Positions 29,673 through 62,178 of a stretch of DNA of 64,000 bases are shown piece by piece. Every line of letters starts with the position of its first letter. Within the stretch, counting starts at the first letter, position 1. The stretch is from an uncultured Lachnospiraceae bacterium (GTDB lineage: Bacteria > Bacillota > Clostridia > Lachnospirales > Lachnospiraceae), in NCBI GenBank assembly GCA_947178145.1, contig CAMWXE010000002.1, positions 1-64,000 of the forward strand, given 5' to 3'. The notes beneath the pieces were generated by a model, which was given only the letters and a program-made list of their open reading frames with translations, was not told the origin of the DNA and made no database searches. A program made the position numbers and the translations under genes.

Positions 29673-30589
29673 GTAAAAATATCCCCCTTTTTTATTGCAA
29701 AATCACACTCATATTCGTCTATCAAGAGGGAACCATCCACCGTTCTGACCACCAGCCTGTCGTCAAAAATATCTGCGACTTCGCCACATGCACAGGCTGA
29801 AAAATCGATCATCTCATCAAAAGGATGCGCTCTCCAGATCGTAACCTTTTTCGATCCAATCATGGCATAAGCGCCCGGAAAAGGTGCCGCGACACCGCGA
29901 ATCAGATTATAAATATTTCTGGTCCTGTCCTGAAAATCAATTTTGCCGTCTGCTGCTGTCCTTTTGGGATACCAGGAGTCAAAATCTTTCGAGTCTGTCT
30001 TAACCGCGACAGTTCCTGTCTGATATGCCTCCAACAATTTTCGAATCAGATTCTTGGCACAGATCATATTTTTGTACTGTGCTGTTCTGATATCGTCATG
30101 CTCTGTGATCGAAAACATCTCCTTCGCAAAGACATTCGGGCTGTCAGCCTTCTCATCGTAACGAAACAGATTGAGGTTAAAGCGCGTATCCCCCTGAATA
30201 ATCGACCAATTCAGCGGTGACCGCCCCCGTCCAAAAGGAAGATAGCCGCAATTGCCATGAAAGCCGAAAATGCCATAGGCAAATGCATCCAGGACAGATC
30301 CTGGCATAAGGCGCTGCCATCCCATCGAAATTCCAATCTCAAACTGGTTCTCCTGTATCAATTCCTGTGTCTTTTCGTCTGTGAGGAAATAACTATCCGC
30401 CATGTGAACAGGAATTCCATATTTCTGTGTCAGTCCATCAAGGCCCTTATACCCGGAAACCTGATTGCGGTTTACAACTTCCTCGCTGATTGTGATCACC
30501 AAATCCACACTGCAAATCGTATTATGGATAAATTCTACGATATTCTCTGTCGTGTCCTTTACCCCAAATACCACTACTTTATACTTCAT
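29669..30589 (-). CDS. formyltransferase family protein (sugar N-formyltransferase candidate)
   Basis: 306 residues from ATG 30589, which overlaps the upstream stop by 4 bases; the frame continues to 30796 but without homology. The block F-G-F-H-G-N then L-P-F-G-R-G-R-S-P-L-N-W (108-127) matches the F-N-L-H-G-S-L-L-P-K-Y-R-G-R-A-P-L-N-W of ArnA and other formyltetrahydrofolate-dependent enzymes, with His111 kept and Asp149 (K-A-D) in the place of the third catalytic residue. The catalytic Asn two before His is Gly109 here. The likely substrate is an amino sugar such as the 4-amino sugar of the PglF/PglE or WecE pathway. A second family member is at 56871-57581. Confidence 0.75.
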   Translation of the reverse strand: MKYKVVVFGVKDTTENIVEFIHNTICSVDLVITISEEVVNRNQVSGYKGLDGLTQKYGIPVHMADSYFLTDEKTQELIQENQFEIGISMGWQRLMPGSVLDAFAYGIFGFHGNCGYLPFGRGRSPLNWSIIQGDTRFNLNLFRYDEKADSPNVFAKEMFSITEHDDIRTAQYKNMICAKNLIRKLLEAYQTGTVAVKTDSKDFDSWYPKRTAADGKIDFQDRTRNIYNLIRGVAAPFPGAYAMIGSKKVTIWRAHPFDEMIDFSACACGEVADIFDDRLVVRTVDGSLLIDEYECDFAIKKGDIFT

Positions 30590-31968
30590 GAGCCCTCTCC
30601 ATTCTTTCTTAATTTTGCGCCCTCTATCAGCATAATAAGCCCCGACTGATAGAAAAATGCCGTGTTGTACAGCATATAGCGCATCTGGCAATAAATCGTA
30701 GCTGATGTAAACACCACGTTTGCAGCAATCGCTGTCAATACAACGATTGCAAACGGCAGAACAGAACACTCCACCACCCGATTGGACTTCTTCCACGCAA
30801 GTAAGAGGAGCAATGCGATATACGCCATATATATCAAAAGTGCGATCCAGTTTAAGATACGGTGTACTTTTAGCACTGTCGTAATCAATCCGTGAATCAC
30901 ATTGCTTATGAAAATGCGAAACAGATCAGGCAGGCACGGTCCAAGCAGCTCCCCTGACATTTCATTAACAATCTTTTCATAGCCGCTCTCCCGCTGGTCC
31001 TCGGGTATTCCATTCTGTTGCTGGTATTCCCTGATTACTGGCATCACTGTGTCAAACTTTATTCGATCATAGGAAAGACTATAGTGATCCTCCAATCCCA
31101 TCCAGCCCTCTCCCGCATACGCGATATTGTACTGATTGCCGTCTGCACGTTCCAATATCTCCAAAAAGATCGCCCTGTTTTCCTCCGAGGAAATATTTTG
31201 TGCCATATCCTTATTCGCAGCATATATTTCATTTCCAAATATAAAGCTTGAATCCCCTGTATGCGGCGCGAAAACACCGCGCACCGCATCATTGTACACG
31301 CAGTCGATCAACCGTGTGCCCGCAAATACCGCCACCGCAATGCAGACTGCACAGGGAACCGCTTTCCGAAAGCTCTTCTTACACAGGTATGCATATATGA
31401 CCGCCAAAAACAGAAGACCAAGACTAATCATCATGTGCTTTCTGATCGAAATCAGGACAATGCTCCACACAACTCCTGTCATAATGCTTTTTTTGTCTCT
31501 GTCATAGACAATCCCAAGCAGGCTTATAAAGAAAAGAATCCAAAAGGAATAGGCCAGCGCCTCTGTACATATACTATTATAATAACTGTATCTTCTCTGT
31601 GCAACAAAACGGTTGAGCAAGGTAATTCCATACTCTATCACCAGCATGCACACCATCCAGAACCAGTGCAGCTGAAATCTTCTCTGCAGCTCCATCGCCA
31701 AAGCTGCAGCCGCATATCCTGCAATCAGGCACTGGACAATCACAACTGCATCCAGATACCTGTCTTTTCCCAGCATCGTCCGAAATATCCATAAAAACGT
31801 ACAATACCCTGGCTCCCTGTCGCTTGTCATGTCAATATACGTGAGACCATCCGGCGTCATGATCACCCCATCGTGCCAGTACCATATCAAATAGAATACC
31901 ACACTGAATACAAACAATCCCAAATATACAATTCGTCTTGTCCTCTTATCCGCTAAATCAACGTTCAT
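30586..31968 (-). CDS. polytopic membrane protein, possibly GT-C-like
   Basis: 460 residues with about 11 hydrophobic segments and a soluble loop at about 225-330. M-T-P-D-G-L-T-Y-I-D in the first outer loop gives acidic residues in the place expected for a GT-C enzyme, but the classical D-E or D-D pair is not seen. ATG 31968 has GGAGG six bases upstream and is preferred over ATG 31974. It sits between the hexapeptide acetyltransferase gene and the formyltransferase. Membrane protein is sure; enzymatic role is inferred from neighbours. Confidence 0.55.
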   Translation of the reverse strand: MNVDLADKRTRRIVYLGLFVFSVVFYLIWYWHDGVIMTPDGLTYIDMTSDREPGYCTFLWIFRTMLGKDRYLDAVVIVQCLIAGYAAAALAMELQRRFQLHWFWMVCMLVIEYGITLLNRFVAQRRYSYYNSICTEALAYSFWILFFISLLGIVYDRDKKSIMTGVVWSIVLISIRKHMMISLGLLFLAVIYAYLCKKSFRKAVPCAVCIAVAVFAGTRLIDCVYNDAVRGVFAPHTGDSSFIFGNEIYAANKDMAQNISSEENRAIFLEILERADGNQYNIAYAGEGWMGLEDHYSLSYDRIKFDTVMPVIREYQQQNGIPEDQRESGYEKIVNEMSGELLGPCLPDLFRIFISNVIHGLITTVLKVHRILNWIALLIYMAYIALLLLLAWKKSNRVVECSVLPFAIVVLTAIAANVVFTSATIYCQMRYMLYNTAFFYQSGLIMLIEGAKLRKNGEGS

Positions 31969-48278: not shown

Positions 48279-48821
48279 TTATCCCCTGGGATTAATCGCT
48301 CCAAACATCACCAAATCTTCATATTGTCCATCCAGAAACAGCTCATCCTTCAGATACGCCTCCTGCACATAGCCTGTTTTCTCATGCAGACGTCTGCTCG
48401 CTGTGTTATACGCAAGCACGCGCGCTGCCAGCTTGTGCATCCCAAGCGTCTCAAAAGCATAGCCTGCCATCAAATGTATGGCCTCCGTGCCAATCCCTTT
48501 TCCATACGCCTGTGCTTCGCCAAGATAGATTCCCGACTCTGCCTTCCTGTGTTCTTCTTCAAAATTTTGGAGATATACAGACCCCATAGGCAGCTGATCC
48601 TCATTCCTGCACACGATAAACTGGTGCACCAGTCCCTTGAAGACTTTATTCTTAAGCCAGTTTTCATGGTCCTCGCAGCTGACAGGCTTCCGGTAAATAA
48701 AATTTTTGACTACCACCGGCATGTTCCGCCAGCGCACAACCATTTCTGTATCCTCCACTGTAATTGGCCTCAGATAAATCTGCTGCCCTCTTATCACAAT
48801 ATCTTTATTCATCGGTTCCAT
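48279..48821 (-). CDS. GNAT family N-acetyltransferase (RimJ/RimL-like)
   Basis: 180 residues. A-Y-G-K-G-I-G-T-E-A (near 109-118) is the acetyl-CoA pyrophosphate-binding loop, and N-T-A-S-R-R-L-H-E-K-T-G-Y the C-terminal GNAT motif. Start 48821 has GGGGAG ahead. It is two genes downstream of wecE, so N-acetylation of dTDP-Fuc4N, the WecD reaction, is a fair guess, although true WecD proteins have an additional N-terminal domain. Acetylation of another 4-amino sugar is equally possible. Confidence 0.75.
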   Translation of the reverse strand: MEPMNKDIVIRGQQIYLRPITVEDTEMVVRWRNMPVVVKNFIYRKPVSCEDHENWLKNKVFKGLVHQFIVCRNEDQLPMGSVYLQNFEEEHRKAESGIYLGEAQAYGKGIGTEAIHLMAGYAFETLGMHKLAARVLAYNTASRRLHEKTGYVQEAYLKDELFLDGQYEDLVMFGAINPRG

Positions 48822-48842: not shown

Positions 48843-50732
48843 TCACTTCTTTGCCAGTTCATATACATCAAATGCCCGTTCTGCTGTGCTTGTCTGTATC
48901 TGATCAATGCATTTTAGTTCTATCGTTATCCCACGTTTTTCGTAATACTGTACGAGCCAGTCAAGCTCCTTGTCCACATGCACCACAAAATACGCTTTTG
49001 CCCGTCCGCCTGTCCCGGAGGCACAGAGTGCACTCTGAACATCCCTGAAACGATACTGCTCCAGTTTCTGCTTTGCAAGCGGGCTTTTGGCTGCCCATCC
49101 TCCACAGAGTTCAAAGTTTTTATACGAGTTATCCACATCCGTAAATATTTTCTCCGAGTAGGGTGCATTCTGATAGGATGTCGCGGAATACACATCGATC
49201 ACATAATAATTATTTCCATTTTTTCGGCAATAATCCATCATTGCGTTCCAACGCTCATCTGCGACTGCACGTTTGCTGTACTCATACTGTATATTCTGCA
49301 GATTTACTGCAAATATGGCGATGACACCGGCCATGCACAGAAGCGATGCTGCTGCCCGCCCCCCCTTCGGCACCCTGTTGCTGGCTTGCTGTGGACAGTC
49401 ACAGAGCCAAAAGCCAAGCAGCATGACCAGCTCCATCATCAGAAGTGGTATGGCGACACGGTCCAGCACTCTGTCGACCATGCACAGATACATCCACAAG
49501 ATGCTGCGCACTGCAAGGAGACCAAGTATTTTGAGAATCGCCATCCCACGCATCTTGCCTCTCGCCATCACCACACCTGTGACAAAGTACAGCAGATATG
49601 CACCGAGCACTGCCATGCTGACCGGTATCCGCCCCGCCGGCTCCTCCCACGATGCCGACACATAGCGCAGTACCAGACTTTTCACTGCGCTAAAATCCCC
49701 CAGCATTTGATTCCTGTACAGCCACAATGCCCCTCTCACATCGTTTTTGCTGACAAATCCAAAGGTATTGTGCAGTCCGTTTTCTCCCCCGGCCGTCCGG
49801 GCAAGTTGTTCCTGATAGGCCACGATCGCTTCCAGTCTCCAGGTATCAATTGACTCGTCCAGCGCAAAATTATAGTTTTCCAACAGTGCGTGCGACTCCC
49901 GCGACAGTCCAATCGACTCATAAAACTCCTGGTTGCTCTCATACGCAGGAAGTCCATAAAAATCATATAGTTTTGTCCGGGCATCAAAGAAATCGCGAAA
50001 GCTTGCCCACTCGCTCCCCCTGTATGCAACCAGGTCGAGCGAATCCACTGCCACCATGCACAGAACCGCCGTTGCGATCAGCATCAAATATTTCCTGCAA
50101 TTGACTGCTGTAAAAAATTTACCCTCACCACACCACTTTGCCAATCCAGCAAGAAGCAGAAAGGGAAACAGCATAATGCAAACTTCTGTTCGAATCATAA
50201 AGGACAACACCACCAGAATAAGCGGCAGCAAATTTCGCCGGAAAAATACTGCCGGCCTGTCTATTTGAGGCGTCGTGAGGAACAAAAACACCGCCCCGGT
50301 CATACAGATTCCCGAAGTGACGCTGTACTGTATGACCACAAACTCCCGCAGAAAGACGCCAAACGCCAAAACGGCCACCGCCGCAGCTGCCATGAATGCC
50401 GCCCGCACACGCCGGACGCGCAGAAGAAGCCTTGCTGTAATCAAATACACCACACCGAACTGACACAGACACAAAAACAAGCCATACCATGGAATTGTCG
50501 GAATGGCCTTGTAAAAAAGCGCAAGACACCACGCCAAAGGATACAGCATCTGTATACAATAGCCGCTCGGCTGACCTGTATATGCCCCTGATACAATATC
50601 CTTTATCATGGTATCGTCATTCAAATCATAATAAAAATCAAATAAGACAGATAAAAGCAGCGCAAGCAAAAAGGTATATACAAAAGCACCACACACTTTT
50701 GCTGCCTTTACTCCTGTGCGGTCATCCATCAT
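48843..50732 (-). CDS. polytopic membrane protein, probable GT-C-like glycosyltransferase
   Basis: 629 residues. About 12 membrane helices to residue 470, then a soluble C-terminal region of about 150 residues. The first outer loop has D-L-N-D-D-T (37-42), an acidic pair at the position used by GT-C enzymes, and Y-C-I-Q-M-L-Y-P follows. Its start overlaps the wecE stop by 4 bases. No closer family could be assigned. The likely donor is a polyprenyl-phosphate sugar, perhaps made by the GtrB-like enzyme two genes downstream. Confidence 0.6.
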   Translation of the reverse strand: MMDDRTGVKAAKVCGAFVYTFLLALLLSVLFDFYYDLNDDTMIKDIVSGAYTGQPSGYCIQMLYPLAWCLALFYKAIPTIPWYGLFLCLCQFGVVYLITARLLLRVRRVRAAFMAAAAVAVLAFGVFLREFVVIQYSVTSGICMTGAVFLFLTTPQIDRPAVFFRRNLLPLILVVLSFMIRTEVCIMLFPFLLLAGLAKWCGEGKFFTAVNCRKYLMLIATAVLCMVAVDSLDLVAYRGSEWASFRDFFDARTKLYDFYGLPAYESNQEFYESIGLSRESHALLENYNFALDESIDTWRLEAIVAYQEQLARTAGGENGLHNTFGFVSKNDVRGALWLYRNQMLGDFSAVKSLVLRYVSASWEEPAGRIPVSMAVLGAYLLYFVTGVVMARGKMRGMAILKILGLLAVRSILWMYLCMVDRVLDRVAIPLLMMELVMLLGFWLCDCPQQASNRVPKGGRAAASLLCMAGVIAIFAVNLQNIQYEYSKRAVADERWNAMMDYCRKNGNNYYVIDVYSATSYQNAPYSEKIFTDVDNSYKNFELCGGWAAKSPLAKQKLEQYRFRDVQSALCASGTGGRAKAYFVVHVDKELDWLVQYYEKRGITIELKCIDQIQTSTAERAFDVYELAKK

Positions 50733-51859
50733 ATGTGATAGAACTCCTTCACTTTCCTTACGATATAATCAACCTCAGCCGGCGTCAGCGAATAGAACAT
50801 TGGCAGACGCATCAGCCGCTCACTTTCCTTCGTCGTATATACATCCTCACCGACAAACCGGCCAAACTTCAAACCGGCCGGTGCAGAGTGCAGCGGAACA
50901 TAGTGAAATACTGCCCATATGCCATTTTCTCTCAGAAAATCAATCAGCCTGGTGCGCTCCGCCAAATCCTTCGCCTTGACATAGTACATATGCCCATTGT
51001 GCACACACCCCTCCGGCACCTGGGGGAGCTCTAATACCCCTCTCTCCTGCAATGGCTGCAGCAGCTCATCATACTGCTGCCACAGCGCCACGCGCTTTGC
51101 GGTTATCTCGTCAATCAGCTCAATCTGCGCCCACAGATAAGCCGCATTCATGTCGCTTGGCAGATAGGAGGAACCATAATTCACCCAGCGGTACTTGTCA
51201 ATCTGTCCCCGGAAAAACTGAGAGCGATTTGTGCCCTTTTCCCGGATAATCTCTGCGTCATTAATATATTTCCCGTCCTGGATCAAAAGCGCGCCGCCCT
51301 CTCCCATGCTCAGGTTCTTTGTCTCATGGAACGAATAGCATCCAAAATCACCGATTGCGCCAAGCTGCTTTCCCTTGTATGTCGCCGCCATTCCCTGCGC
51401 CGCATCCTCCACTACAAAGAGCTTGTGCCGCCTTGCGATATCCATGATCGTATCCATCTCACAGGCAACGCCCGCATAGTGGACAGGAAGAATCGCTCTC
51501 GTCCGGTCTGTAATCGCCTGTTCAATCAAATTTTCGTCGATATTCATCGTATCGGGTCTGATATCGACAAACACTGCTTTGGCGCCGCGGAGCACGAAAG
51601 CGTCCGCAGTGGACACAAAGGTATAGGAAGGCAGGATGACCTCGTCTCCTTCTTTGATGTCAATCAATAATGCTGCCAGCTCTGTCGCCTGTGTGCAGGA
51701 AGGAGTCAGCAGGCACTTTGCCGCACCCGTCTGTTGTTCGATCCACTCACTGCACCTTTTCGTGAACGGACCGTCCCCACATATCTTCTGGTTTTCCACT
51801 GCCTGCCTGATATACTCCATCTCCTTGCCTGTAAACGGCGGTACGTTAAAATTGATCAT
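50729..51859 (-). CDS. wecE: dTDP-4-amino-4,6-dideoxygalactose transaminase
   Basis: 376 residues, very close to Escherichia coli WecE/RffA along the whole length: C-G-D-G-x-F-T-x-R-C near the N-terminus, L-P-S-Y-T-F-V-S-T-A, V-H-Y-A-G-V-A-C-E-M-D-T-I-M, and PLP Lys181 in F-H-E-T-K-N. It aminates dTDP-4-keto-6-deoxyglucose to dTDP-Fuc4N with glutamate. RmlA and RmlB, needed for the substrate, are not in the window. The gene has its own promoter and a hairpin-forming leader (51926-52000). Confidence 0.92.
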   Translation of the reverse strand: MINFNVPPFTGKEMEYIRQAVENQKICGDGPFTKRCSEWIEQQTGAAKCLLTPSCTQATELAALLIDIKEGDEVILPSYTFVSTADAFVLRGAKAVFVDIRPDTMNIDENLIEQAITDRTRAILPVHYAGVACEMDTIMDIARRHKLFVVEDAAQGMAATYKGKQLGAIGDFGCYSFHETKNLSMGEGGALLIQDGKYINDAEIIREKGTNRSQFFRGQIDKYRWVNYGSSYLPSDMNAAYLWAQIELIDEITAKRVALWQQYDELLQPLQERGVLELPQVPEGCVHNGHMYYVKAKDLAERTRLIDFLRENGIWAVFHYVPLHSAPAGLKFGRFVGEDVYTTKESERLMRLPMFYSLTPAEVDYIVRKVKEFYHI

Positions 51860-52065: not shown

Positions 52066-54939
52066 TTAATATGCGCAAAACACTGTATATGCTTCATTGC
52101 GAAAGCACTGCCTGTATCCATTTCCCTCTGCAAAATCCATAATGAGCATCAGCTTCTGATAGGTGTGTCCATTGGCCTCTGTCAGACTTTCTACAGAAGA
52201 ACGCCCTAATATAATTACAGGGAGCGCATCTGGTGCTGTTTCGCCTGACAGGTTGTTTAGATCTGCCTCCAATAAGTCAATCCCGTTCGAATCGAGGTCC
52301 GCCCATGTCGTAAATATTGCAGGCTCCATATCGAACAGATATGCTATAGAAGGAATATTGCCATATAATATCACCTGCTTTTTATTCAAGTCGTTTTGAC
52401 ACAAATATTCGTCAAGCTCCCTAAGCGCCTCTTCCTTATCCGCTGTCGTCGCAAGTCCTGCACCTGCGCTGCCGCATTGCAGCGCAATACGACTGTTATT
52501 TTCCTGCACGCCCTTGTCGTGAAACACAAAACGAATTCCAAACAAAACGCTCTGCACTGCTGTGCACACAAGTATAAAGCCAAGCGTTACCCGGAATGCG
52601 TAACTTTTTAATCCCAGTTTGCAGCTTTTCCTAAATACACTCTCAATCATCCAGAGCGAGACCGGCGCCACCAGAAACAGATTGTTGATAATTGGATACA
52701 ACCCATTATTACTTCCAAGCGGCGTCACAAATATAATAACAAGCAAAAATACTGCCCATAATCTGAACTCTCTGCCCGCGTCTTTGTTCCATAACAGCCA
52801 TATACACAAAGCAATCACAATCAGCAGGTATACGGTCACCCACTTATACATACTAAAATTGTCATTGTAGGCAAAGTCAAACATCCCTCTGCCATAGCAG
52901 AAGCGAAGCACCACCAACAGGCCTAACGTATATAGCACTTTGAATGCATTTGTTATTTTGTTCTTCTGCGCAGTTTTGACAAATCTGTCCAACAGATTAA
53001 AAAATAACAGGCCTGCTGCCATGTACCCTGCGAACAGCAGCAGCCATACACTGTACTGAATATAGTCCTCAAACATCGCCGTAATCATCGATGTGGGTCT
53101 ATAATCTGTCGCGTGATCCGTCATCCCGAACAGTGAGGAAATCATCTGAGGATATGCCGTCATCCCATACCGTGCACTGATCACTGCCAGCGGCACAAGA
53201 AGTGCTGTGAGATACCCGCTGATACAGTACAAAGTATGCGCAGCTAACCGCCCAAGCCATGCGTTTTTCTTTGTTTCTTGTCCTGCTGCGCCACGATTCC
53301 AGAAGCAGTCGAGCCACACCGGCAGAATAAATGCCATATATGTGATATTTGGCATCCGCACCGTCACACAAATTCCAAGAATAACACCCGCTATCACAAA
53401 ATATTTCTTTCTTTCCTTCCTCATCGCCTGAAACAATACGATAACGGCCACTGTCATAAGCAAATATCCCAGATAATGATATAATATAACAGCTGGCGCC
53501 CAGCAGAGCGAGAGTGCTGTCAGCTCCGACACAAATAGCAGAATGGAAAATAACTTCCTCTTCTGTCCATATTCCTTCCACAAAAAAAGATAAACGCCCG
53601 CTGCCACCGCACCAATCAACAGCCCACAGTACACATTCATGCCAATCCATGTATCCCCAAAGGGCAATTCAGACAATAATACCCCTGTCACATTTGCCAG
53701 ATAGGTCGCAAGCTTCCAGGTCTGATTCAGCGAATCAAAGAAGTGGTAATTTCCAAGCGCGTAGCCCGCATCCATCAAGTCCAGACCAACTGTGGCATGA
53801 CGCAGCGGGTACACCAGCAGAATCAATGCCGGAAGAATTGTCATGCTGCACTTCTGACGAATCAGCTCGATCGCTGTACAAACCAGATAGACACATAAGA
53901 CACTGACCAGCATGTGCCCCAGGAAACCGACAACCGAATTGCCAGCCTGCTCCTCACAGTGAAGCCACTCCGGCCATGCATAGCGGATATTCATATGTTC
54001 ATGAATCAGATAGACTCCAAAAGTCGCTCCCGAGAACAGCTCAATGAGCTTTCGGAATCGCTCCGGCACAGCTCCTGCCTCCGTTTCCTTATCACTCTTA
54101 TTTGCCTGAAACAAGAGCATCATGCCCACTGCACCCGTATAACAGAACAGAAAATTGTAGGTGTACCCATAGTTGATCATCGCTTCCAGTCTTCCTGTTT
54201 TCAAAAAAATCATTCTGATCAGGAAAAAAGAGGCAAAGACCGCCATCATACTGCCAAAGTACAGTGCTGCTGCCCTTTGTCTGGTACTGATCAACGGCAC
54301 CTTATACCGCCTGAGATAGGCCCCCGTCAAATACAGAACCACAAACCACATGCCATCATACCCGTATTTATCCCATGGAAGCTGCATCGGAATGACCGTT
54401 TTGGAGACACTAAATATCAACACAAGCCCAATCAGCAGATATTGGCTTTCCCTCTGGTCCAAATAAGAGATCCCGACATTTAAAAACGGCATCAGCAGGC
54501 ACAAAACAACATAATAGGTTGCAAACCAGTAGTGCTCTGTCACAATCGGAAAGCAATAGGAAAAAAACTGATAGAGTTCAAACTCCTGCCCCCCAATCAG
54601 AAGTGCGCCACATCCAAAGAGCATCGAATAAAAAAACACTTGTTTCCATATTTTAACCGGCCTTCGCAGCACCTCGCGAAATGTAACTCTTTGCCCGGCA
54701 GACAGCCCCCATCGTGCATCCACGCCGAAATATCCGCTGATAAGCACATAGACATTGACCGCCACAAGACAGAATGCCTCGATCAGCCATGCCGCATATC
54801 CTGTGGCTGTCATGTCCGCCCTTGCCGGATTGCCAAGCAGCCCCCCCTTGCTGAGGTAGTGCAGACACACAATCATCAGCATCGCTATCATGCGCAGCAG
54901 CTCATAATTCAATTGTCTTTTTTTCCCTGCGGTCATCAT
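52066..54939 (-). CDS. acyltransferase-3 / GT-C-like fusion membrane protein
   Basis: 957 residues with about 22 membrane helices. Residues 1-370 are an acyltransferase-3 domain: L-N-Y-E-L-L-R-M-I-A-M near the start, His27 in C-L-H-Y, and F-G-V-Y-L-I-H-E-H near 320. Such domains O-acetylate or succinylate sugars at the membrane. Residues 380-770 form a second polytopic unit, and 790-957 a soluble tail, together like the GT-C proteins of this locus. No frameshift or internal stop separates them, so one gene product carries both. The start overlaps the pseG end by 38 bases. Confidence 0.75.
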   Translation of the reverse strand: MMTAGKKRQLNYELLRMIAMLMIVCLHYLSKGGLLGNPARADMTATGYAAWLIEAFCLVAVNVYVLISGYFGVDARWGLSAGQRVTFREVLRRPVKIWKQVFFYSMLFGCGALLIGGQEFELYQFFSYCFPIVTEHYWFATYYVVLCLLMPFLNVGISYLDQRESQYLLIGLVLIFSVSKTVIPMQLPWDKYGYDGMWFVVLYLTGAYLRRYKVPLISTRQRAAALYFGSMMAVFASFFLIRMIFLKTGRLEAMINYGYTYNFLFCYTGAVGMMLLFQANKSDKETEAGAVPERFRKLIELFSGATFGVYLIHEHMNIRYAWPEWLHCEEQAGNSVVGFLGHMLVSVLCVYLVCTAIELIRQKCSMTILPALILLVYPLRHATVGLDLMDAGYALGNYHFFDSLNQTWKLATYLANVTGVLLSELPFGDTWIGMNVYCGLLIGAVAAGVYLFLWKEYGQKRKLFSILLFVSELTALSLCWAPAVILYHYLGYLLMTVAVIVLFQAMRKERKKYFVIAGVILGICVTVRMPNITYMAFILPVWLDCFWNRGAAGQETKKNAWLGRLAAHTLYCISGYLTALLVPLAVISARYGMTAYPQMISSLFGMTDHATDYRPTSMITAMFEDYIQYSVWLLLFAGYMAAGLLFFNLLDRFVKTAQKNKITNAFKVLYTLGLLVVLRFCYGRGMFDFAYNDNFSMYKWVTVYLLIVIALCIWLLWNKDAGREFRLWAVFLLVIIFVTPLGSNNGLYPIINNLFLVAPVSLWMIESVFRKSCKLGLKSYAFRVTLGFILVCTAVQSVLFGIRFVFHDKGVQENNSRIALQCGSAGAGLATTADKEEALRELDEYLCQNDLNKKQVILYGNIPSIAYLFDMEPAIFTTWADLDSNGIDLLEADLNNLSGETAPDALPVIILGRSSVESLTEANGHTYQKLMLIMDFAEGNGYRQCFRNEAYTVFCAY

Positions 54940-56098
54940 GTTCCCTCATTTCTCCCGTCGCTTTTTCGTCCATGCACGTTTCTGTCACAAGATGCACCAG
55001 CTGCTCTGCAATGCGGCGCGCCCCTCTCCCATCGATGAGCCCTGTCTCCTGGCAGTTTAAAAGCTCCCTGTATGATTTATCGCTGATACAGCGTTTCAAT
55101 GCCTCCCTGATCCTGTCTGCCACTGCCTCGCCATTCCCGGCAAAACAGCCTGCATTGACGATATCTGTAAGCTTCTCCAGCGCCTCCGCTCCCTGCCTTT
55201 GATTCTCTGCAAAATAAAATACAATCATTGGCACGCCAAGGGAACTGACTTCATAAATCGTGCTCCCAGTCGCAGTTATGACCACATCACTTTGCAGAAG
55301 CAGACTGCGCATATCCTTTACATTTTCATGAATTGTAATCATGACCGTTGGCGTGTCAGCCGATGATGTATTCCAGCTGCTGCACTGATTCTGGTATTTG
55401 CGTTTCAACTCGTCTGCATATCGGTTAAAGGGACCGCTGATCAAATGCAGGTGGATCCCCTGTTCCGCGATTGCCCTGTCACTGATCAGGGCATCCGCAA
55501 AGGCCGCTGTTGCAAAATACGGATCGCTTCCGCCGGTCGTTATAATAACATCCGTTACCTGATTGTTGACCGCATATCCTGCCGGCTTCTGGAATGCCTT
55601 GCGAAGCGGCATATACTGTGCTCCCAAAAGCAGCTGTCGGGGATATCTGTCTGTCTCCTGACACTCCCAATCAAAGCACCTGTAATTTTTTTCCAGAACT
55701 GGCGCGTAAATATTGTAATTGATCAGCAAATCAACCGGATAGGCCTCTCCCATATCCTCAAAACACGCTACCTTCACAAACTTTCGCAGCGCGAGATAAT
55801 ATTCGCGGCTCACCTGATAACTGTCCACGAGCAGCACATGTCCGCTCCCCGCATCTGGCGGCACTCCCAACAGCGTTTCAAGCTGCGAAAGCTCACACAT
55901 CATATCCCTGTAATCGGTGCCCAGTACTATGACTTGGAATCCTCTGTCGCGTATCATCGGGCAGCACCTCTCATCTGCCGTGATAAAAACAGGCCGGTGC
56001 ATCCCGTCCAGATCCGCTGCTGCCTCCGCAACGGAGAGACAGCGCATCACGTGCCCCATGCCAATCTCTGCGTTGCCATCCGCACGAATGTACAACAT
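54902..56098 (-). CDS. pseG: PseG, UDP-2,4-diacetamido-2,4,6-trideoxy-beta-L-altropyranose hydrolase
   Basis: 398 residues. R-A-D-G-N-A-E-I-G-M-G-H-V-M-R-C (5-20) with the catalytic His16, T-T-G-G-S-D-P-Y (near 190) and S-L-G-V-P-M-I-V-F are hallmarks of PseG, a GT-B fold hydrolase that releases UDP from UDP-6-deoxy-AltdiNAc. It supplies the sugar that PseI condenses with phosphoenolpyruvate. Length exceeds the roughly 275 residues of Campylobacter PseG; part of the excess is a charged C-terminal tail. The gene lies last in the pse block, apart from pseI and pseH by two tailoring genes. Confidence 0.88.
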   Translation of the reverse strand: MLYIRADGNAEIGMGHVMRCLSVAEAAADLDGMHRPVFITADERCCPMIRDRGFQVIVLGTDYRDMMCELSQLETLLGVPPDAGSGHVLLVDSYQVSREYYLALRKFVKVACFEDMGEAYPVDLLINYNIYAPVLEKNYRCFDWECQETDRYPRQLLLGAQYMPLRKAFQKPAGYAVNNQVTDVIITTGGSDPYFATAAFADALISDRAIAEQGIHLHLISGPFNRYADELKRKYQNQCSSWNTSSADTPTVMITIHENVKDMRSLLLQSDVVITATGSTIYEVSSLGVPMIVFYFAENQRQGAEALEKLTDIVNAGCFAGNGEAVADRIREALKRCISDKSYRELLNCQETGLIDGRGARRIAEQLVHLVTETCMDEKATGEMREHDDRREKKTIEL

Positions 56099-56137
56099 CT
56101 CATCCCTCCCTGCAGTTCCTGCAATGCCATGATATCC

Positions 56138-56833
56138 TCATCCCTTTTTCCATCTCTTCCGCACCAGCATAAATGCCTCCGCCCGCTCCATTCCGGCCGC
56201 CATACCGCGCATTCTTGACATCACATCCATCCCTGTCACACTCCTCGGATGGGGAAAGGCGCAAAGCTCTGATACATAGCAGCGCATCGCCTGCTCCTTT
56301 TTGTCATAGTAATCCGTGATATCCACAAACACATTGGGACAAAAAGCAGGCTGTGCACTGTAATCAAAATTCCACTCCGAGGAGGAAAGCGTCTCGAACG
56401 CATAAATCTCCTCCACACAGCAGTCCGCCATCGGCCGTGTCGCCGTGAGCACCGCACGCGCGGTATGCTGATGATCGACGTTCAAGTCACCGCTGTAATG
56501 CGTATAGATAATCTGCGGCTGCAGTTCGCGTATTTTCTGCTCCACTGCTTTTACAATGTCAAGCAGATCAACATGGTCAAACCGGTTGTCTGGAAAATCT
56601 GCAAAAAAAACTTTCCTGAAACCGATTGCCCCGGCGCTCTCCAACGTATTCTGGTGAAGCTCCTCCACGACGTCCCGGCCAGTATCCTCCCTGTGCGTGC
56701 CGCGCGAAGTCTGCCCCTCCCCCAAAATAAGCGCATAGACAGCATCCCCTTCTGCCACATGCCTGGCCGCTGTTGCGCCGACTCCGAGAATCTCGTCATC
56801 TGGATGCGCCGCCACAATCAATACTGTTTTCAT
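56138..56833 (-). CDS. PIG-L family N-deacetylase
   Basis: 231 residues. A-H-P-D-D-E (9-14) supplies zinc ligands and the catalytic Asp, and the later N-V-D-H-Q-H-T-A gives the third ligand. PIG-L enzymes remove N-acetyl groups from GlcNAc-type sugars (GlcNAc-PI, BshB, MshB). Here the gene sits inside the pse block between the formyltransferase and pseG, so a precursor of pseudaminic acid or the finished nonulosonate is the probable substrate. GGGAG lies eight bases before ATG 56833. No signal peptide, so it acts in the cytoplasm. Confidence 0.85.
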   Translation of the reverse strand: MKTVLIVAAHPDDEILGVGATAARHVAEGDAVYALILGEGQTSRGTHREDTGRDVVEELHQNTLESAGAIGFRKVFFADFPDNRFDHVDLLDIVKAVEQKIRELQPQIIYTHYSGDLNVDHQHTARAVLTATRPMADCCVEEIYAFETLSSSEWNFDYSAQPAFCPNVFVDITDYYDKKEQAMRCYVSELCAFPHPRSVTGMDVMSRMRGMAAGMERAEAFMLVRKRWKKG

Positions 56834-56870
56834 ATCTCAATCTCCCATCTCTTGCCCAGAACGAAAAACA

Positions 56871-57581
56871 CTATTCTGCCGTTGGCCGGAATACCACCCT
56901 CGCCGAGAGCTCCCTTCCACTGCCCGCATCGTCCGCCATACACGCCTTCTCAAATTCCAGCCGGTAATTTCCAAACTCGATAAATGCCCTGGGATACCCC
57001 TCCGCGTCAAGCATTCTGATATAATCATAAATCTGATCGATTCCCATATCGGATGTGATCTGCCCATCCTCCGGCTTTCTGCGCTTAAATATAACCGGTT
57101 CTCCCTCCTGCGGCACTGGCACCATGTTCTCTTTGCCACCCTCTAAAAACAGCGGAATCATCTCCTGAAAAATAATATCCGAACAGCGCACAAAAATTTC
57201 CTGAGCACTTCCCTCCAGAGACAGCACGCGCTTCATATATACCGGACCTCCGTCAAGTCTCTCTGTCATTTTGATAGCTGAAATCTTTGTCTCCTTATGC
57301 CCGCGCACGATTAAGTTCTGCAGGGGACTTCCGCCGCGCCCATAAGGTAAATCTGTCATGTGAAACACCACACATTCCCAGTTGTCCGTAATCTCGCGCG
57401 GCATAATATAGGACCAGTGCGGCAGAAAGATGTAATCTGGTTGAAAATCGCGCACATTCTCTGCATTGAATTCTTCCCTGGTCGTATATATAACAATATC
57501 ATGGACCCCCTCATACTGTTTCTGCAGCGCTTCTGCGCGCGCAATATTCCATGATTTGATTGTTGCTACAATAATCTTCAT
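56871..57581 (-). CDS. formyltransferase family protein of the pse block
   Basis: 236 residues from ATG 57581; the frame runs to 57686 without homology. V-V-F-H-M-T-D-L-P-Y-G-R-G-G-S-P-L-Q-N-L (71-90) and E-R-L-D-G-G-P-V-Y (107-115) match the formyltetrahydrofolate enzyme core, with His74 and Asp110 kept and the Asn before His replaced. The protein lacks the C-terminal domain of tRNA formyltransferase. Its place after pseH suggests N-formylation of the 4-amine of the altrose intermediate, giving a 7-formamido pseudaminic acid. It differs strongly from the family member at 29669-30589. Confidence 0.8.
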   Translation of the reverse strand: MKIIVATIKSWNIARAEALQKQYEGVHDIVIYTTREEFNAENVRDFQPDYIFLPHWSYIMPREITDNWECVVFHMTDLPYGRGGSPLQNLIVRGHKETKISAIKMTERLDGGPVYMKRVLSLEGSAQEIFVRCSDIIFQEMIPLFLEGGKENMVPVPQEGEPVIFKRRKPEDGQITSDMGIDQIYDYIRMLDAEGYPRAFIEFGNYRLEFEKACMADDAGSGRELSARVVFRPTAE

Positions 57582-57594
57582 TCCATAACATCCT

Positions 57595-58053
57595 TTACAT
57601 TTCTTTTTCGTACTGTATATATTCTGGCCAGTCTTTTCTGCAAAAACCACACTTCTCAAAAGCCTTGGCCGATGCGTGGTTTTCATACTTTACCTGTCCG
57701 ATAAGTTTTGTGACATGTGAGCTCATATCGGCTGCAGACTGCGCCTGTATCATACGAAGCATTTCACTTCCATAGCCCTTTTTGCGCTGTCTGGGCGCTA
57801 CGCTGTAATCAATCAGCGCCCCGCTGCCTTCCACATTCAGCCGGATCTGTCCCACAGGAGTCCCATCATCACATAGGACATATTGGTACACCGATGCGTC
57901 CGCCATCATCTTTTCAAACCATTTCACATGATTTTCATATGGAATCTTTTCCATGTGAAACGCATTTGCCCGAACCGCATCATCATTCACCCATTCAAAG
58001 AGCAGATCCAGGTCCCCCTGACAGGCTCTTCGCAGCCATAAACTCCCTCTCAT
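57595..58053 (-). CDS. pseH: PseH, UDP-4-amino-4,6-dideoxy-L-AltNAc N-acetyltransferase
   Basis: 152 residues. The N-terminal L-R-R-A-C-Q-G-D-L-D-L-L-F-E-W-V-N-D and the GNAT loop R-Q-R-K-K-G-Y-G-S-E are like those of PseH. The enzyme acetylates the C4 amine made by PseC, using acetyl-CoA. The frame is open to 58098, overlapping pseI, but ATG 58053 with GGAGG five bases upstream is a much better start. A formyltransferase gene follows immediately, so both acetylated and formylated products may be possible. Confidence 0.82.
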   Translation of the reverse strand: MRGSLWLRRACQGDLDLLFEWVNDDAVRANAFHMEKIPYENHVKWFEKMMADASVYQYVLCDDGTPVGQIRLNVEGSGALIDYSVAPRQRKKGYGSEMLRMIQAQSAADMSSHVTKLIGQVKYENHASAKAFEKCGFCRKDWPEYIQYEKEM

Positions 58054-58081
58054 CCACGCCTCCTCAAAACAGCAGCTTCTG

Positions 58082-59131
58082 TCACCCGATATCCTCAAAC
58101 GAGAGTGGTGTCCCCCGCTTCAAATCACGCTTTGCCCTCTGCCCAAGCACCTCCTTGTAATGCTTGGGTTTTAATCCATACGCCGGCCGGATACTTCTGA
58201 TATTTTCCGGCGTCAATGTTTCCCCCGCAGCGATATCCTGCACGACAAAGAGAGAACGCCGGAAGCAGGCATTGCTCTCCTCCTGTCTGGAAACACCGTA
58301 TTGGACTGTCCCGATCGCCTTCTCCACCTTGCGCACCTCGCGGACCATCTCACGGAATTCCTGCGGCTCCATGGAAAAGCTGGAATCCGGATTCCTAATC
58401 GCACGGCTGATACAGAAATGCTTTTCAATGATACTGGCGCCCAGCGCAACAGCCGTCACAGCGCTGAACGCTCCCATCGAATGGTCAGAAAGTCCGATTG
58501 GAATACCAAACCGCGCCTTCAAATCGCGGATCGTGCCAAGATTCATCTCCTCACATTTTGCCGGATACGCACTTGAGCACTTCATCAGTGCAAGCTGCCG
58601 ATTCCCTGTGCGGTAGATCGTCTCCACCGCCTCGTTGATCTCCTCCAATGTGCCCATCGCAGTCGACATGATAATCGGCTTGTTCTTGGACGCAATATAC
58701 TCCAGCAATGGAATGTCCACCAGCTCAAACGAAGCGATTTTATAAAAGCGCACCCCCAGCTTTTCGAGAAAGTCAACAGAAGTATTGTCAAACGGTGTCG
58801 ACAAAAAGTCTATCCCCACTTTTGCCGCCTCATCCCGCAGCGCTTCCTGCCACTCCCAGGGAGTATATGCCTTCTGGTACAACCCATAGAGATTTTCGCC
58901 TTCCCAAGTCCCCTTCTCAATCTCAAAATATTCATTATGACAGTCGATCGTCATCGTATCCGCTGTGTAAGTCTGTATCTTGACACAGTCTGCCCCGGCC
59001 TCCTTCGCCGCATGAATCAGCTCCAGTGCACGCTCAATGCTTCCCGCATGGTTCGCGGACATCTCAGCGATAATATAGGCGGGATATCCATCCCCCACCA
59101 TTCTTCCATTGATAGTTAGCGTACTTTCCAT
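58082..59131 (-). CDS. pseI: PseI, pseudaminic acid synthase
   Basis: 349 residues. A NeuB-type TIM barrel (1-270) with A-E-M-S-A-N-H near the start, S-T-P-F-D, I-G-L-S-D-H-S and E-K-H-F, followed by a C-terminal SAF (antifreeze-like) domain from about 285. It condenses phosphoenolpyruvate with the 6-deoxy-AltdiNAc sugar to give pseudaminic acid. ATG 59131 has GGAGG five bases ahead and is preferred over 59146. The A-E-M-S-A-N-H form is that of PseI rather than sialic acid synthase, and the surrounding pse genes support it. Confidence 0.92.
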   Translation of the reverse strand: MESTLTINGRMVGDGYPAYIIAEMSANHAGSIERALELIHAAKEAGADCVKIQTYTADTMTIDCHNEYFEIEKGTWEGENLYGLYQKAYTPWEWQEALRDEAAKVGIDFLSTPFDNTSVDFLEKLGVRFYKIASFELVDIPLLEYIASKNKPIIMSTAMGTLEEINEAVETIYRTGNRQLALMKCSSAYPAKCEEMNLGTIRDLKARFGIPIGLSDHSMGAFSAVTAVALGASIIEKHFCISRAIRNPDSSFSMEPQEFREMVREVRKVEKAIGTVQYGVSRQEESNACFRRSLFVVQDIAAGETLTPENIRSIRPAYGLKPKHYKEVLGQRAKRDLKRGTPLSFEDIG

Positions 59132-59149
59132 TATTTCCTCCATCAATCT

Positions 59150-59854
59150 CTATCTTCTTCCATCCCCGCACTGCAGAAGCTTGTATTTCATCTCTGCGAG
59201 CGCCCAGTCCTCCGGGGTGTCAATATCCTGCACATACCGCTCATCCTGTATATAGGGAACTGCGTTCTCCATCCAGATGGCTTTCTGCTGCTGGAAGCGC
59301 CCGACATTCAGACAATAAAACTGACCACAATCGTGGTACAACGGCTCCAAATCCTGCGAGCGTTTCGCCATGTTTTCCGGCCACTTAGGCGTCAGTCTGC
59401 CATCCTTTACCACTACGCCCCGCTGCGGCGGGAAAGAAAATTTCACCACCGGAATCACGCAATCTGCCTGTTCCTGCTCCAACAGCATCATAGCGGACTT
59501 GATCGCACTGGCTGTCACAAATGGCGCTGTGGGATATATGCAGCACGCTGTGCAAAAATCCATTCCGATCCGCGCATAGGACTCAAGTACTTCCTCAATC
59601 ACATCCGCTGTCGTGGCAAAGTCATTGGAAGTCTTCTCACTTCTGAAAAAAGGCACCCTGGCCCCTGCCCTTTTTGCCACCTGTGCGATCTCCTCATCAT
59701 CTGTCGACACCATGACTTCATGAAACAAATCAGCCTGCAATGCCGCCTCAATACTGTACACAAGAATGGGTTTCCCCAGAAACGGCTTGATATTCTTGCG
59801 CGGTATCCGCTTGCTGCCGCCCCGCGCTGTTATGATTGCTACACTCTTATTCAT
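59150..59854 (-). CDS. pseF: PseF, CMP-pseudaminic acid cytidylyltransferase
   Basis: 234 residues. A-R-G-G-S-K-R-I-P-R-K-N (8-19) is the CTP-binding motif of CMP-sugar synthetases, and the C-terminal half has Y-V-Q-D-I-D-T-P-E-D-W. The enzyme activates pseudaminic acid with CTP for transfer. The frame extends to 59950, but ATG 59854 begins the homology and has GGAG upstream. A hairpin (59919-59942) lies between pseC and this gene. Confidence 0.9.
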   Translation of the reverse strand: MNKSVAIITARGGSKRIPRKNIKPFLGKPILVYSIEAALQADLFHEVMVSTDDEEIAQVAKRAGARVPFFRSEKTSNDFATTADVIEEVLESYARIGMDFCTACCIYPTAPFVTASAIKSAMMLLEQEQADCVIPVVKFSFPPQRGVVVKDGRLTPKWPENMAKRSQDLEPLYHDCGQFYCLNVGRFQQQKAIWMENAVPYIQDERYVQDIDTPEDWALAEMKYKLLQCGDGRR

Positions 59855-59918
59855 GCTCCATTTCTCCTTCTGATACAAGTTGGCCTGTTTGCGGTCACGC
59901 GCCGCTACACATTGCGAA

Positions 59919-59942
59919 AAGTCTGGCTTTTCAACCAGACTT
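59919..59942 (-). terminator. weak intrinsic terminator or attenuator between pseC and pseF
   Basis: Minus-strand arms AAGTCTGG (59942-59935) and CCAGACTT (59926-59919) enclose an 8-base loop and run into a short T-tract (TTTT, then CG). The tract is short, so partial read-through is likely, which would lower expression of pseF and later genes relative to pseB and pseC. Confidence 0.5.
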
Positions 59943-59951
59943 AACCGCACA

Positions 59952-61145
59952 CTATTTCTTATAATAGTCTACAATCTTTCGCACTGCCATAATCACGTCA
60001 TCAATATCCTGATCGGTCAACGAATAATAAATCGGCAGACTCATCATCTCCTCATAAAGCTTCTCCGCATTGGGGCAAAGGCCCTTTTTATATCCCAGCC
60101 TCTCATAATACGGATGCCAATACACTGGAATATAGTGTACATTACAGCAGATATTTTCCGCTGTCATCGCCTCGAAAAAGCCCTTGCGGTCAATCGTCAG
60201 CAATTCCGGCCTTATCCGCAGTATGTAGAGATGTCTCGTCGTGTCGGACTCCGCAATCTCCTGCTGCATGAAGAGCTGAGGTATCTGCGAAAACGCCGCA
60301 TTGTATCGCTCGACAATCTCTCTGCGTCTCTTTGCAAACTGTGCAAGCTTGTCTATCTGGCTTAGAATCAATGCACACTGAATATCCGTAATCCTGTAGT
60401 TGTATCCTAAATCAATCTGCTCATGATACCATGGACCATGACTCGCATTCTCATAAAATATCTCATCCTTCGTAATACCGTGGGAGCGGTAGAGCAGAAG
60501 TTTTTCATATAAATCTCTGCGGTTTGTGAGCACTGCGCCGCCCTCTCCGCCTGTCACCGTCTTGACAGGATGAAAGCTAAACGTCGTGATATCCGCAATG
60601 CTGCCAACCGTTTTGCCCTTGTACTTCGTGCCAATGGAATGCGCCCCGTCCTCTATCAGCACAATCCCCTTGTCGTGGCATAGCTCCATCAGCTCATCCA
60701 GCGGGGCCGCCTGTCCCGTGAAATCCACTGCCACCACAGCCTTTGTTTTTTCTGTGATCTTCTCCCGCACGCATGCCGGATCGATGTTGTAGGTATTTGG
60801 ATTAATATCTGCAAACACTGGTCTTCCCCCACAGTAGAGTGCACAGTTTGCAGACGCCGCAAAGGTAATCGGTGTCGTGATCAGCTCATCCCCCGCGCCA
60901 ACACCTGCTGCCATCGCCGCAATATGAAGCGCCGCAGTGCCGTTGCTGACCGCAACGGCATACCTTGCTCCCGTAAGCTCACAGAGCTTTTGTTCCAACT
61001 CCACCACTTTCGGACCACAGGTAAGATAATCGCTGGTGAGCACTTCCTCCACTGCTTTTACATCTGCCTGGTCAACAAACTGATGACCATAATATAGTTT
61101 TGTATCTCTGACCGGGACACCTCCCGCAATCGCTGGTTTTTCCAT
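59952..61145 (-). CDS. pseC: PseC, UDP-4-keto-6-deoxy-L-AltNAc aminotransferase
   Basis: 397 residues of the DegT/DnrJ/EryC1 class, with PLP Lys195 in S-F-H-P-V-K-T-V-T-G-G-E-G-G and E-D-G-A-H-S-I-G at 165-172. These features and the neighbours fit PseC, which aminates C4 of the PseB product. ATG 61145 lies 43 bases beyond the pseB stop; the frame is open to 61289 within pseB without homology. Confidence 0.93.
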   Translation of the reverse strand: MEKPAIAGGVPVRDTKLYYGHQFVDQADVKAVEEVLTSDYLTCGPKVVELEQKLCELTGARYAVAVSNGTAALHIAAMAAGVGAGDELITTPITFAASANCALYCGGRPVFADINPNTYNIDPACVREKITEKTKAVVAVDFTGQAAPLDELMELCHDKGIVLIEDGAHSIGTKYKGKTVGSIADITTFSFHPVKTVTGGEGGAVLTNRRDLYEKLLLYRSHGITKDEIFYENASHGPWYHEQIDLGYNYRITDIQCALILSQIDKLAQFAKRRREIVERYNAAFSQIPQLFMQQEIAESDTTRHLYILRIRPELLTIDRKGFFEAMTAENICCNVHYIPVYWHPYYERLGYKKGLCPNAEKLYEEMMSLPIYYSLTDQDIDDVIMAVRKIVDYYKK

Positions 61146-61188
61146 AATTTCCCTCCATGCCGCCTGGCAGAGCCCTTTGCACCGTTGC

Positions 61189-62178
61189 TTAGTTTTGTGT
61201 CTTGAGAAGCTCCCGAATCTGTTCCACGGAAAGCCATTCTGTATTGTTCCCTGACGAGTAATAGAACCCGTCCTCCACCTTCCGGCCACTTGGATTTGGC
61301 CGCTTTGACTCCTGCCAGAACATCTGTGGATAGATGATAAAGTTCTTCTCGTACTCGTAAGTCGTCATGGAATCTTCCGGTGTGATCATCACCTCATGCA
61401 GCTTCTCACCCGGGCGGATGCCAACCTCCACTGTTTTCATACCTGGCGCCATCGCCTCCGCAAGGTCTGTGATCTTAAAGGACGGAATCCTGCTGATAAA
61501 GGTCTCACCGCCCTTCGCCTCCTCGAGCGCCTTGATCACAAGCTCAATCCCCTCTGTCAGGCTGATCCAGAATCGTGTCATGCGGTAATCTGTGATTGGA
61601 AGCTCGCTGGCCCCCTCCGCAATCAGCTTTTGGAAAAGCGGAATGATCGACCCTCTGCTGCCCGCCACATTTCCATAGCGCACGATCGAGAAATTCAGGT
61701 CCTTTGTACCGCAGTACGCATTGGCAGCGATAAACAGTTTATCTGACACAAGTTTCGTGCCGCCGTATAAGTTCACCGGATTGACCGCCTTGTCCGTAGA
61801 CAGTGCGACAACTTTCTGAATCCCTGTGTTCAAAGCCGCGTCAATGACATTCTGGGCACCGTTCACATTCGTCTTGATCGCCTCGTTGGGATTGTACTCG
61901 CACGCGGGCACTTGTTTTAATGCCGCCGCATGAATCACATAGTCAACACCCTCAAACGCGCGCTTCATGCGCTCGTAATCGCGCACATCGCCGATAAAGA
62001 AGCGCAGTTTGTCCTGATACTGTGCAAAATCGTTTGCCATCACCCACTGCTTGAACTCATCCCTCGAATAGATAATAATCTTTTTGGGATTGTAATGTGT
62101 CAGTGCATACTCCGTAAAACACCTTCCAAAAGAACCCGTGCCACCTGTAATCAATATTGTTTTATCATCTAATATCAT
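61189..62178 (-). CDS. pseB: PseB, UDP-GlcNAc 4,6-dehydratase (inverting)
   Basis: 329 residues. Soluble SDR with I-T-G-G-T-G-S-F-G (10-18) and the catalytic set Asp129, Lys130 (S-T-D-K) and Tyr138 with Lys142 (Y-G-G-T-K), as in FlaA1/PseB, which removes water from UDP-GlcNAc and inverts C5. That keeps Tyr, unlike the PglF-like protein at 42631. GGAGG lies six bases ahead of ATG 62178. The ATG at 62232 lies upstream of the predicted transcription start and can be excluded. It is the first gene of the pse operon. Confidence 0.95.
   Translation of the reverse strand: MILDDKTILITGGTGSFGRCFTEYALTHYNPKKIIIYSRDEFKQWVMANDFAQYQDKLRFFIGDVRDYERMKRAFEGVDYVIHAAALKQVPACEYNPNEAIKTNVNGAQNVIDAALNTGIQKVVALSTDKAVNPVNLYGGTKLVSDKLFIAANAYCGTKDLNFSIVRYGNVAGSRGSIIPLFQKLIAEGASELPITDYRMTRFWISLTEGIELVIKALEEAKGGETFISRIPSFKITDLAEAMAPGMKTVEVGIRPGEKLHEVMITPEDSMTTYEYEKNFIIYPQMFWQESKRPNPSGRKVEDGFYYSSGNNTEWLSVEQIRELLKTQN

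Follow-up and report, generated by a model that had tools for sequence, protein, structure and literature searches.

A predicted formyltransferase and PIG-L deacetylase pair in a pseudaminic acid gene cluster of an uncultured Lachnospiraceae bacterium

Sugars resembling sialic acid cover the flagella and polysaccharides of bacteria, and in the textbook route to one of them, pseudaminic acid (Pse), the acetyl group derived from N-acetylglucosamine (GlcNAc) stays on C5. The canonical route to cytidine monophosphate (CMP)-pseudaminic acid in Helicobacter and Campylobacter proceeds through PseB, PseC, PseH, PseG, PseI and PseF. PseC supplies the amine at C4 of the hexose, the later C7, and PseH acylates it; the only other nitrogen is that of the GlcNAc acetamido group, which becomes C5. 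In this study, a pse gene cluster was analyzed in a 64,000-nucleotide stretch of contig CAMWXE010000002.1 (assembly GCA_947178145.1; uncultured Lachnospiraceae bacterium), and this whole stretch is called the window. As in Helicobacter and Campylobacter, genes for all six enzymes, with those for PseH and PseG as candidates, run in one direction in the window; in contrast to those systems, the window adds a formyltransferase (FMT) and a PIG-L-type N-deacetylase (PIGL) between pseH and pseG, and its predicted product is the 5-N-formyl-7-N-acetyl form (Pse5Fo7Ac), not Pse5Ac7Ac. The canonical pathway is described in the available text of PMC5109656.

The available text of PMC6137143 reports 5-N-formyl-legionaminic acid in Halorubrum sp. 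PV6 and a candidate formyltransferase gene in its cluster, and the term deacetylase is absent from it. This sugar, like the product predicted for the window, carries formyl on C5 of a nonulosonate, but it is legionaminic instead of pseudaminic. A nonulosonate cluster on a Halorussus plasmid was found to contain PIG-L between neuB and neuC, as well as two formyltransferase genes. Another published pse cluster, like that of the window, holds a deacetylase inside, which is given no specific role in the accessible part of its description; formyl is not mentioned there, whereas the window adds FMT. Formyltransferases (PMC5109656, PMC4875605) and deacetylases (PMC7874193) occur in flagellin glycosylation islands, and the available parts of these papers do not assign them the role considered here. 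The available part of PMC13317340 contained no mention of formyl, deacetyl, PIG-L or WbqC, and PMC7371886 and the available part of PMC9966250 yielded nothing of use to this analysis. Neither literature combining pseudaminic acid, a formyltransferase and a deacetylase nor, among the papers listed, a description of the FMT-PIGL pair was found in a search that left subscription journals mostly outside.

The cluster occupies positions 62178-54902 on the minus strand in the order pseB-pseC-pseF-pseI-GNAT-FMT-PIGL-pseG, in which ORFs (open reading frames) and profile families agreed, and the order given by the first-pass annotation of the window (pseB-C-F-I-H, formyltransferase, PIG-L, pseG) was thereby borne out. 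FMT (56871-57581, minus strand) and PIGL (56138-56833, minus strand) are separated by 37 nt, with 13 nt between pseH and FMT and 39 nt between PIGL and pseG. We consider it moderately probable that the two proteins form a two-enzyme N-acyl exchange unit in an otherwise complete Pse pathway, giving CMP-Pse5Fo7Ac. In the proposed route, PseB, PseC and PseH would generate uridine diphosphate (UDP)-2,4-diacetamido-2,4,6-trideoxy-L-altrose, PIGL would strip the GlcNAc-derived 2-N-acetyl group at the future C5, and FMT would formylate the freed amine with N10-formyl-tetrahydrofolate as donor. PseH would still acetylate the C7 amine, and PseG, PseI and PseF would complete the route to CMP-Pse5Fo7Ac. 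The product, a predicted variant of a surface sugar, would differ from Pse5Ac7Ac by -14.016 Da. The deacetylase is expected to act at the C5 position because the sole other nitrogen carries the GlcNAc acetyl and a deacetylase is needed only there. Action of PIGL and FMT at the UDP-sugar level, before PseG, is favored on the basis of PseH-FMT fusions and the activities of known PIG-L enzymes, and the two enzymes may instead act after PseG, on the free sugar. The first-pass annotation had proposed that PIG-L frees a C5-type amine for another acyl group, leading to an N-formyl nonulosonate. This was supported as the most likely reading, for which we infer the chemistry, namely which donor provides the formyl group, that it goes to C5, in which order the steps run and what the pathway finally yields.

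PIGL matched the PIG-L/LmbE profile PF02585 with 95.1 bits (cut-off 28.2). In an alignment of 41 sequences, residues H10, D12, D13 and E14 (HPDDE) and D120-H121 were invariant, and this HPDDE with a later D-H is presumably the metal-binding and catalytic motif. The structure model (predicted local distance difference test, pLDDT, 92.6) matched the folds of BshB and of the diacetylchitobiose, teicoplanin and MshB deacetylases, which we take to act on the 2-N-acetyl beside a substituted C1 (C1-substituted GlcNAc). PIGL is predicted to be an N-deacetylase of the acetyl group that ends on C5.

FMT was placed by profile and fold among the sugar N-formyltransferases of the PF00551 superfamily (PF00551, 38.0 bits, cut-off 26.1; PF21553, 91.6 bits, cut-off 27). 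By both sequence and fold, the closest structure was PDB 1zgh (E = 2.5e-77; template modelling score, TM, 0.91) from Clostridium thermocellum, a member of the same subfamily titled methionyl-tRNA formyltransferase, followed in fold matches of the model (pLDDT 89.8) by ArnA, Fmt, HypX, WbkC and VioF. The score of FMT against the methionyl-tRNA formyltransferase model TIGR00460 was 34.8 bits, under the cut-off of 201.5, and a housekeeping methionyl-tRNA formyltransferase was rejected on this score. By the same score, 1zgh probably bears a title that does not fit the subfamily, a name presumably given from homology, and the pair likewise suggests that the deposited structure was misnamed. Other FMT matches in the genome of the bacterium were just two, both weak (E = 1.3e-7 and 2.1e-6).

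The distribution of the two genes was analyzed in 38 genomes of the genus to which the window belongs. PseI was over its cut-off in 38/38, FMT was present in 35/38, and PIGL of this type in 33/38, so that the pair was nearly universal; the first-pass annotation had asked whether the set is conserved, and it is. FMT was seen without PIGL in G004 and G016, where the FMT is cut by the contig end in both cases; G004 showed remote PIG-L matches only. Three genomes (G008, G026 and G035) contained neither gene and kept the pseB-C-F-I-GNAT-G order. In a tree of PseB, PseC and PseI built from the 35 loci in which all three genes were recovered, well-supported branches forced at least three separate changes in presence or absence of the pair. 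These results suggest that FMT and PIGL come or go together as one two-gene unit, a cassette on a self-sufficient Pse5Ac7Ac pathway; three losses would account for the pattern, and repeated gains would do so less simply.

Gene fusions were found on both sides of FMT. FMT and PIGL form a single ORF of 481 amino acids in L045, a member of the genus, and a PseH-like GNAT is fused with FMT in seven loci (L053, L054, L072, L074, L077, L078 and L087); a Pfam domain check confirmed the fusions in L045, L053 and L072. A scan seeded with PIGL, in which 80 loci were kept of at least 360 relatives, gave FMT in 62 and a PseI/NeuB homologue in 71 of the 80 loci among the matches listed. Among these listed matches, FMT preceded PIGL at a spacing of -146 to +90 nt in 54 of 61 unfused pairs, the remaining seven being further apart. 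In L107, FMT and PIGL are a plus-strand pair within a minus-strand pse cluster. Joint absence, the fusions and this opposite-strand pair rule out that FMT and PIGL are chance neighbors. That both extra genes belong to a variant pathway, as the first-pass annotation had it, accords with their joint presence and absence and with the fusions.

The pair also occurred far beyond the genus. FMT-labelled rows of the PIGL tree came from Bacillota and at least seven further phyla. A scan of contigs catalogued as viral in IMG/VR, seeded with FMT, gave PIGL in 20 of 25 fetched stretches (L171-L195), at a distance of at most 150 nt in 13, and 15 of the 25 stretches held a NeuB/PseI homologue; with repeats removed, PIGL was present in 18/20 and within 150 nt in 12/20. 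A phylum sample was too sparse, with FMT in 4/299. The occurrence of the pair in many phyla predicts C5 editing by a dedicated two-enzyme module; the pair may serve as a gene marker for N-formyl nonulosonates, and it might explain how 5-N-formyl sugars, the haloarchaeal one included, come to be made.

In the first-pass annotation, FMT was inferred to act at C7, in competition with PseH or in its stead. FMT would then formylate the 4-amine in competition with PseH, giving a 7-formamido Pse, and PIG-L would separately leave a free C5 amine. There is precedent for such a sugar, since Pse5Ac7Fo occurs in Pseudoalteromonas distincta KMM 638 according to the available text of PMC3210612. In the available text of PMC5109656, Geobacillus Pse clusters are without a PseH orthologue and two type III strains carry a formyltransferase, a pattern expected from the first-pass annotation that would count against a C5 role of FMT if this enzyme is of the FMT subfamily. 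L089 and L080 (the latter a 4-kb contig) have a different formyltransferase between the CMP-sugar synthetase and pseI, where L088 (pseF-GNAT-pseI-FMT-PIGL-pseG) has its GNAT; the FMT-PIGL pair is kept in both L088 and L089. The retention of PseH argues in the other direction. Among the matches listed, 48 FMT-PIGL loci had at least 3 kb on each side, and a GNAT was located within 1.2 kb of the pair in 40 and within 6.5 kb in 43 of them. In the remaining five, a different acylating gene is present or the GNAT is further away: the other-type formyltransferase in the pseH slot of L089, a GNAT 7.4 kb off in L113, a second formyltransferase-family gene after PIGL in L068, a similar gene in L069 (whose own FMT ORF has just 134 amino acids), and a four-gene lipoyl-acyltransferase module in L041. 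Since PseH was kept or separately replaced while FMT-PIGL stayed, FMT would act on a different amine from PseH. In addition, the seven GNAT-FMT fusions speak against competition at C7, and an FMT acting only there would not need the PIGL with which it is jointly present or absent, so we regard this alternative as improbable.

A later acyl exchange by PIGL and FMT, whether on the free hexose once PseG has acted, on Pse or CMP-Pse, or on the finished glycan, would still yield an N-formyl nonulosonate. It is consistent with PIGL adjoining pseG in the window and with pseG lying between FMT and PIGL in L068 and L069, but the PseH-FMT fusions suggest a common UDP-sugar substrate and known PIG-L enzymes presumably use C1-substituted GlcNAc, which makes it rather unlikely. 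The remaining possibility concerns FMT itself, which might be no amine formyltransferase but use another donor or be a hydrolase or binding protein, PIGL then leaving a free amine or another acyl being added. What raises it is residue 72. We take Asn-x-His...Asp to be the catalytic triad of formyltransferases, with Asn presumably catalytic. FMT keeps its His and Asp, and its Asn is mostly Val: of the 61 sequences that have a residue at this column, the window protein among them, 58 have Val72, the exceptions being Ile in L098, Cys in L107 and Asn, the sole case, in L103. The same Val is found in 1zgh, and the second formyltransferase type, which reads VVHES in L080 and L089, is also without N-x-H. 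Against this, His74 (61/61) and Asp110 (62/62) are conserved, ArnA and Fmt follow 1zgh among the fold matches, and the Pfam scores pass their cut-offs. We hold it to be distinctly improbable that FMT is not an amine formyltransferase, and Val72 is the main doubt on its formyl chemistry.

Several observations weigh against the preferred reading, that FMT and PIGL exchange the C5 acetyl for formyl. The C5 assignment of the pair is itself deduced from the pathway, Val72 of FMT stands at the position occupied by the Asn of N-x-H in aligned methionyl-tRNA formyltransferases, and to our knowledge there is no assayed enzyme of the 1zgh-type subfamily. Most of the fusions come from assembled metagenomes; within the genus, L053 and L054 are almost copies of each other, and L072, L074, L077, L078 and L087 belong to one other clade. 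All three genomes without the pair are from a single genus. The adjacency of the two genes is not universal: pseG separates them in L068 and L069, the gap is 1563 nt in L112, PIGL is upstream of FMT in viral L174, L175, L187 and L191, and it is more than 300 nt away in viral L176, L181 and L186. Five viral FMT loci (L182-L185 and L190) are without PIGL; the FMT matches of L182-L185 are at least 99.7% alike, and L182 and L190 have 5 to 7 kb beyond FMT, so this is no contig-end effect. Two other haloarchaeal nonulosonate loci contained neither PIGL nor FMT within 9 kb. Finally, in a sample of 250 genomes of the family (249 genera), FMT was found in 3/250 genomes versus PseI over its cut-off in 56/250. 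The first-pass annotation had named as a contrary outcome that homologous pse clusters rarely carry both genes. This is true of the family sample, but PIGL adjoined FMT in 3/3 of its FMT-bearing genomes and the pair is near-universal in the genus; the pair is thus rare among the pse clusters of the family, yet FMT is seldom found without PIGL.

The partner of PIGL was found to vary in distant phyla. When the 59 rows of the PIGL tree were labelled by locus, 40 had FMT, 8 WbqC, 7 ATP-grasp and 4 none of these, with FMT taking precedence in L113 (also WbqC) and in L079 and L104 (also ATP-grasp). The label requires 14 changes on the tree, where 3 is the least possible number and shuffled labels average 18.2, indicating that partners cluster yet have switched many times. 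The WbqC label alone clustered no better than shuffled labels (153 of 500 shuffles as low), and the ATP-grasp genes are frequently kilobases from PIGL. Eighteen loci were FMT-less among the matches listed, including six with WbqC and seven with a PylC-like ATP-grasp gene. A second formyltransferase type lies directly upstream of PIGL in L096 and a formyltransferase-family gene directly downstream in L070; L067 has full flanks and no candidate partner, and the stretches of L057 and L099 are short or truncated. It is conceivable, and we put it forward tentatively, that a general mechanism of acyl exchange in bacterial and archaeal nonulosonate biosynthesis is built around this PIGL subfamily, in which PIGL removes the GlcNAc-derived acetyl and an interchangeable partner sets the C5 acyl group. 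The roles of the WbqC and ATP-grasp partners are guesses. If the proposal is true, the partner gene (FMT, WbqC or PylC-like ATP-grasp) would predict the C5 substituent, and WbqC-family proteins would gain a role in a nonulosonate pathway. WbqC-family genes were located directly upstream of the PIG-L gene at L117:7291-8684 and L108:9264-10675.

The four-gene module was observed between pseF and FMT in two genus members (L041:3728-9265 and L198:2889-8283), after pseI in L041 and before pseI in L198. It encodes a thiamine pyrophosphate (TPP)-dependent E1 dehydrogenase, a fusion of a lipoyl domain with a PglD/NeuD-like hexapeptide acyltransferase, a lipoate ligase and a dihydrolipoyl-dehydrogenase-like protein. 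The two fusion proteins are 53% identical, and no GNAT was seen beside FMT in either locus (the contig of L198 ends within FMT). The module resembles a system of acyl-lipoyl donors that would serve sugar N-acylation instead of PseH. In the 250-genome family sample, the hexapeptide part alone was matched, in 4 genomes, and no literature joining the terms nonulosonic and lipoyl was found.

The six remaining genes of the window cluster, all on the minus strand, were assigned by profile and position. PseB, a UDP-GlcNAc 4,6-dehydratase (inverting) (61189-62178; TIGR03589, 526.9 bits, cut-off 407.75), the aminotransferase PseC (59952-61145; TIGR03588, 457.5 bits, cut-off 423.5), the CMP-Pse synthetase PseF (59150-59854; TIGR03584, 289.5 bits, cut-off 205.7) and the Pse synthase PseI (58082-59131; TIGR03586, 477.2 bits, cut-off 340.25) all exceeded the NCBIfam cut-offs and are equivalogs of the canonical Pse pathway. 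The GNAT protein in the pseH place (57595-58053; PF13302, 63.6 bits), a predicted 4-N-acetyltransferase for the future C7, scored 55.3 bits against the PseH model TIGR03585, under the cut-off of 93.1, and the UDP-sugar hydrolase PseG (54902-56098; TIGR03590) scored 142.2 bits, slightly under its cut-off of 153.55; PseH and PseG are candidate assignments from these sub-threshold scores together with position in the cluster. The coordinates of pseC, pseF, pseH and pseI begin at ATG codons, and the profile scans used starts up to 3 codons upstream (pseC, pseF and pseH) or 1 codon downstream (pseI). PseH-like GNAT proteins were also seen fused with other Pse enzymes, with PseI at L146:7175-8698 and, in one genus locus lacking the FMT-PIGL pair, with PseG in a single ORF at L201:6246-7817.

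The source genome is a draft assembly in 200 contigs, and its contamination is estimated at 6.77%. It contains flagellin matches and, on contig C33, two Maf-like (PF01973) matches beside another NeuB-like gene. This second NeuB-like gene (locus L202) lies near the Maf-like matches and cytidylyltransferase fusions, and L202 is a separate, probably flagellar, nonulosonate locus; no FMT or PIG-L match was obtained on C33 in searches of the genome. A flagellar role of the window cluster was rejected, as the Maf-like matches are on C33 and the window neighbors are polysaccharide genes. Among the 26 proteins scanned from the rest of the window are glycosyltransferases, a Wzy_C protein, an MBOAT protein and other polysaccharide gene products, and because of these neighbors a surface polysaccharide seems a likelier destination of the sugar than the flagellum. 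Another formyltransferase of the window (29669-30796) lies inside a run of polysaccharide genes. A WecE-type aminotransferase (50729-51859) with a GNAT nearby (48279-48821) perhaps represents a separate amino-sugar branch.

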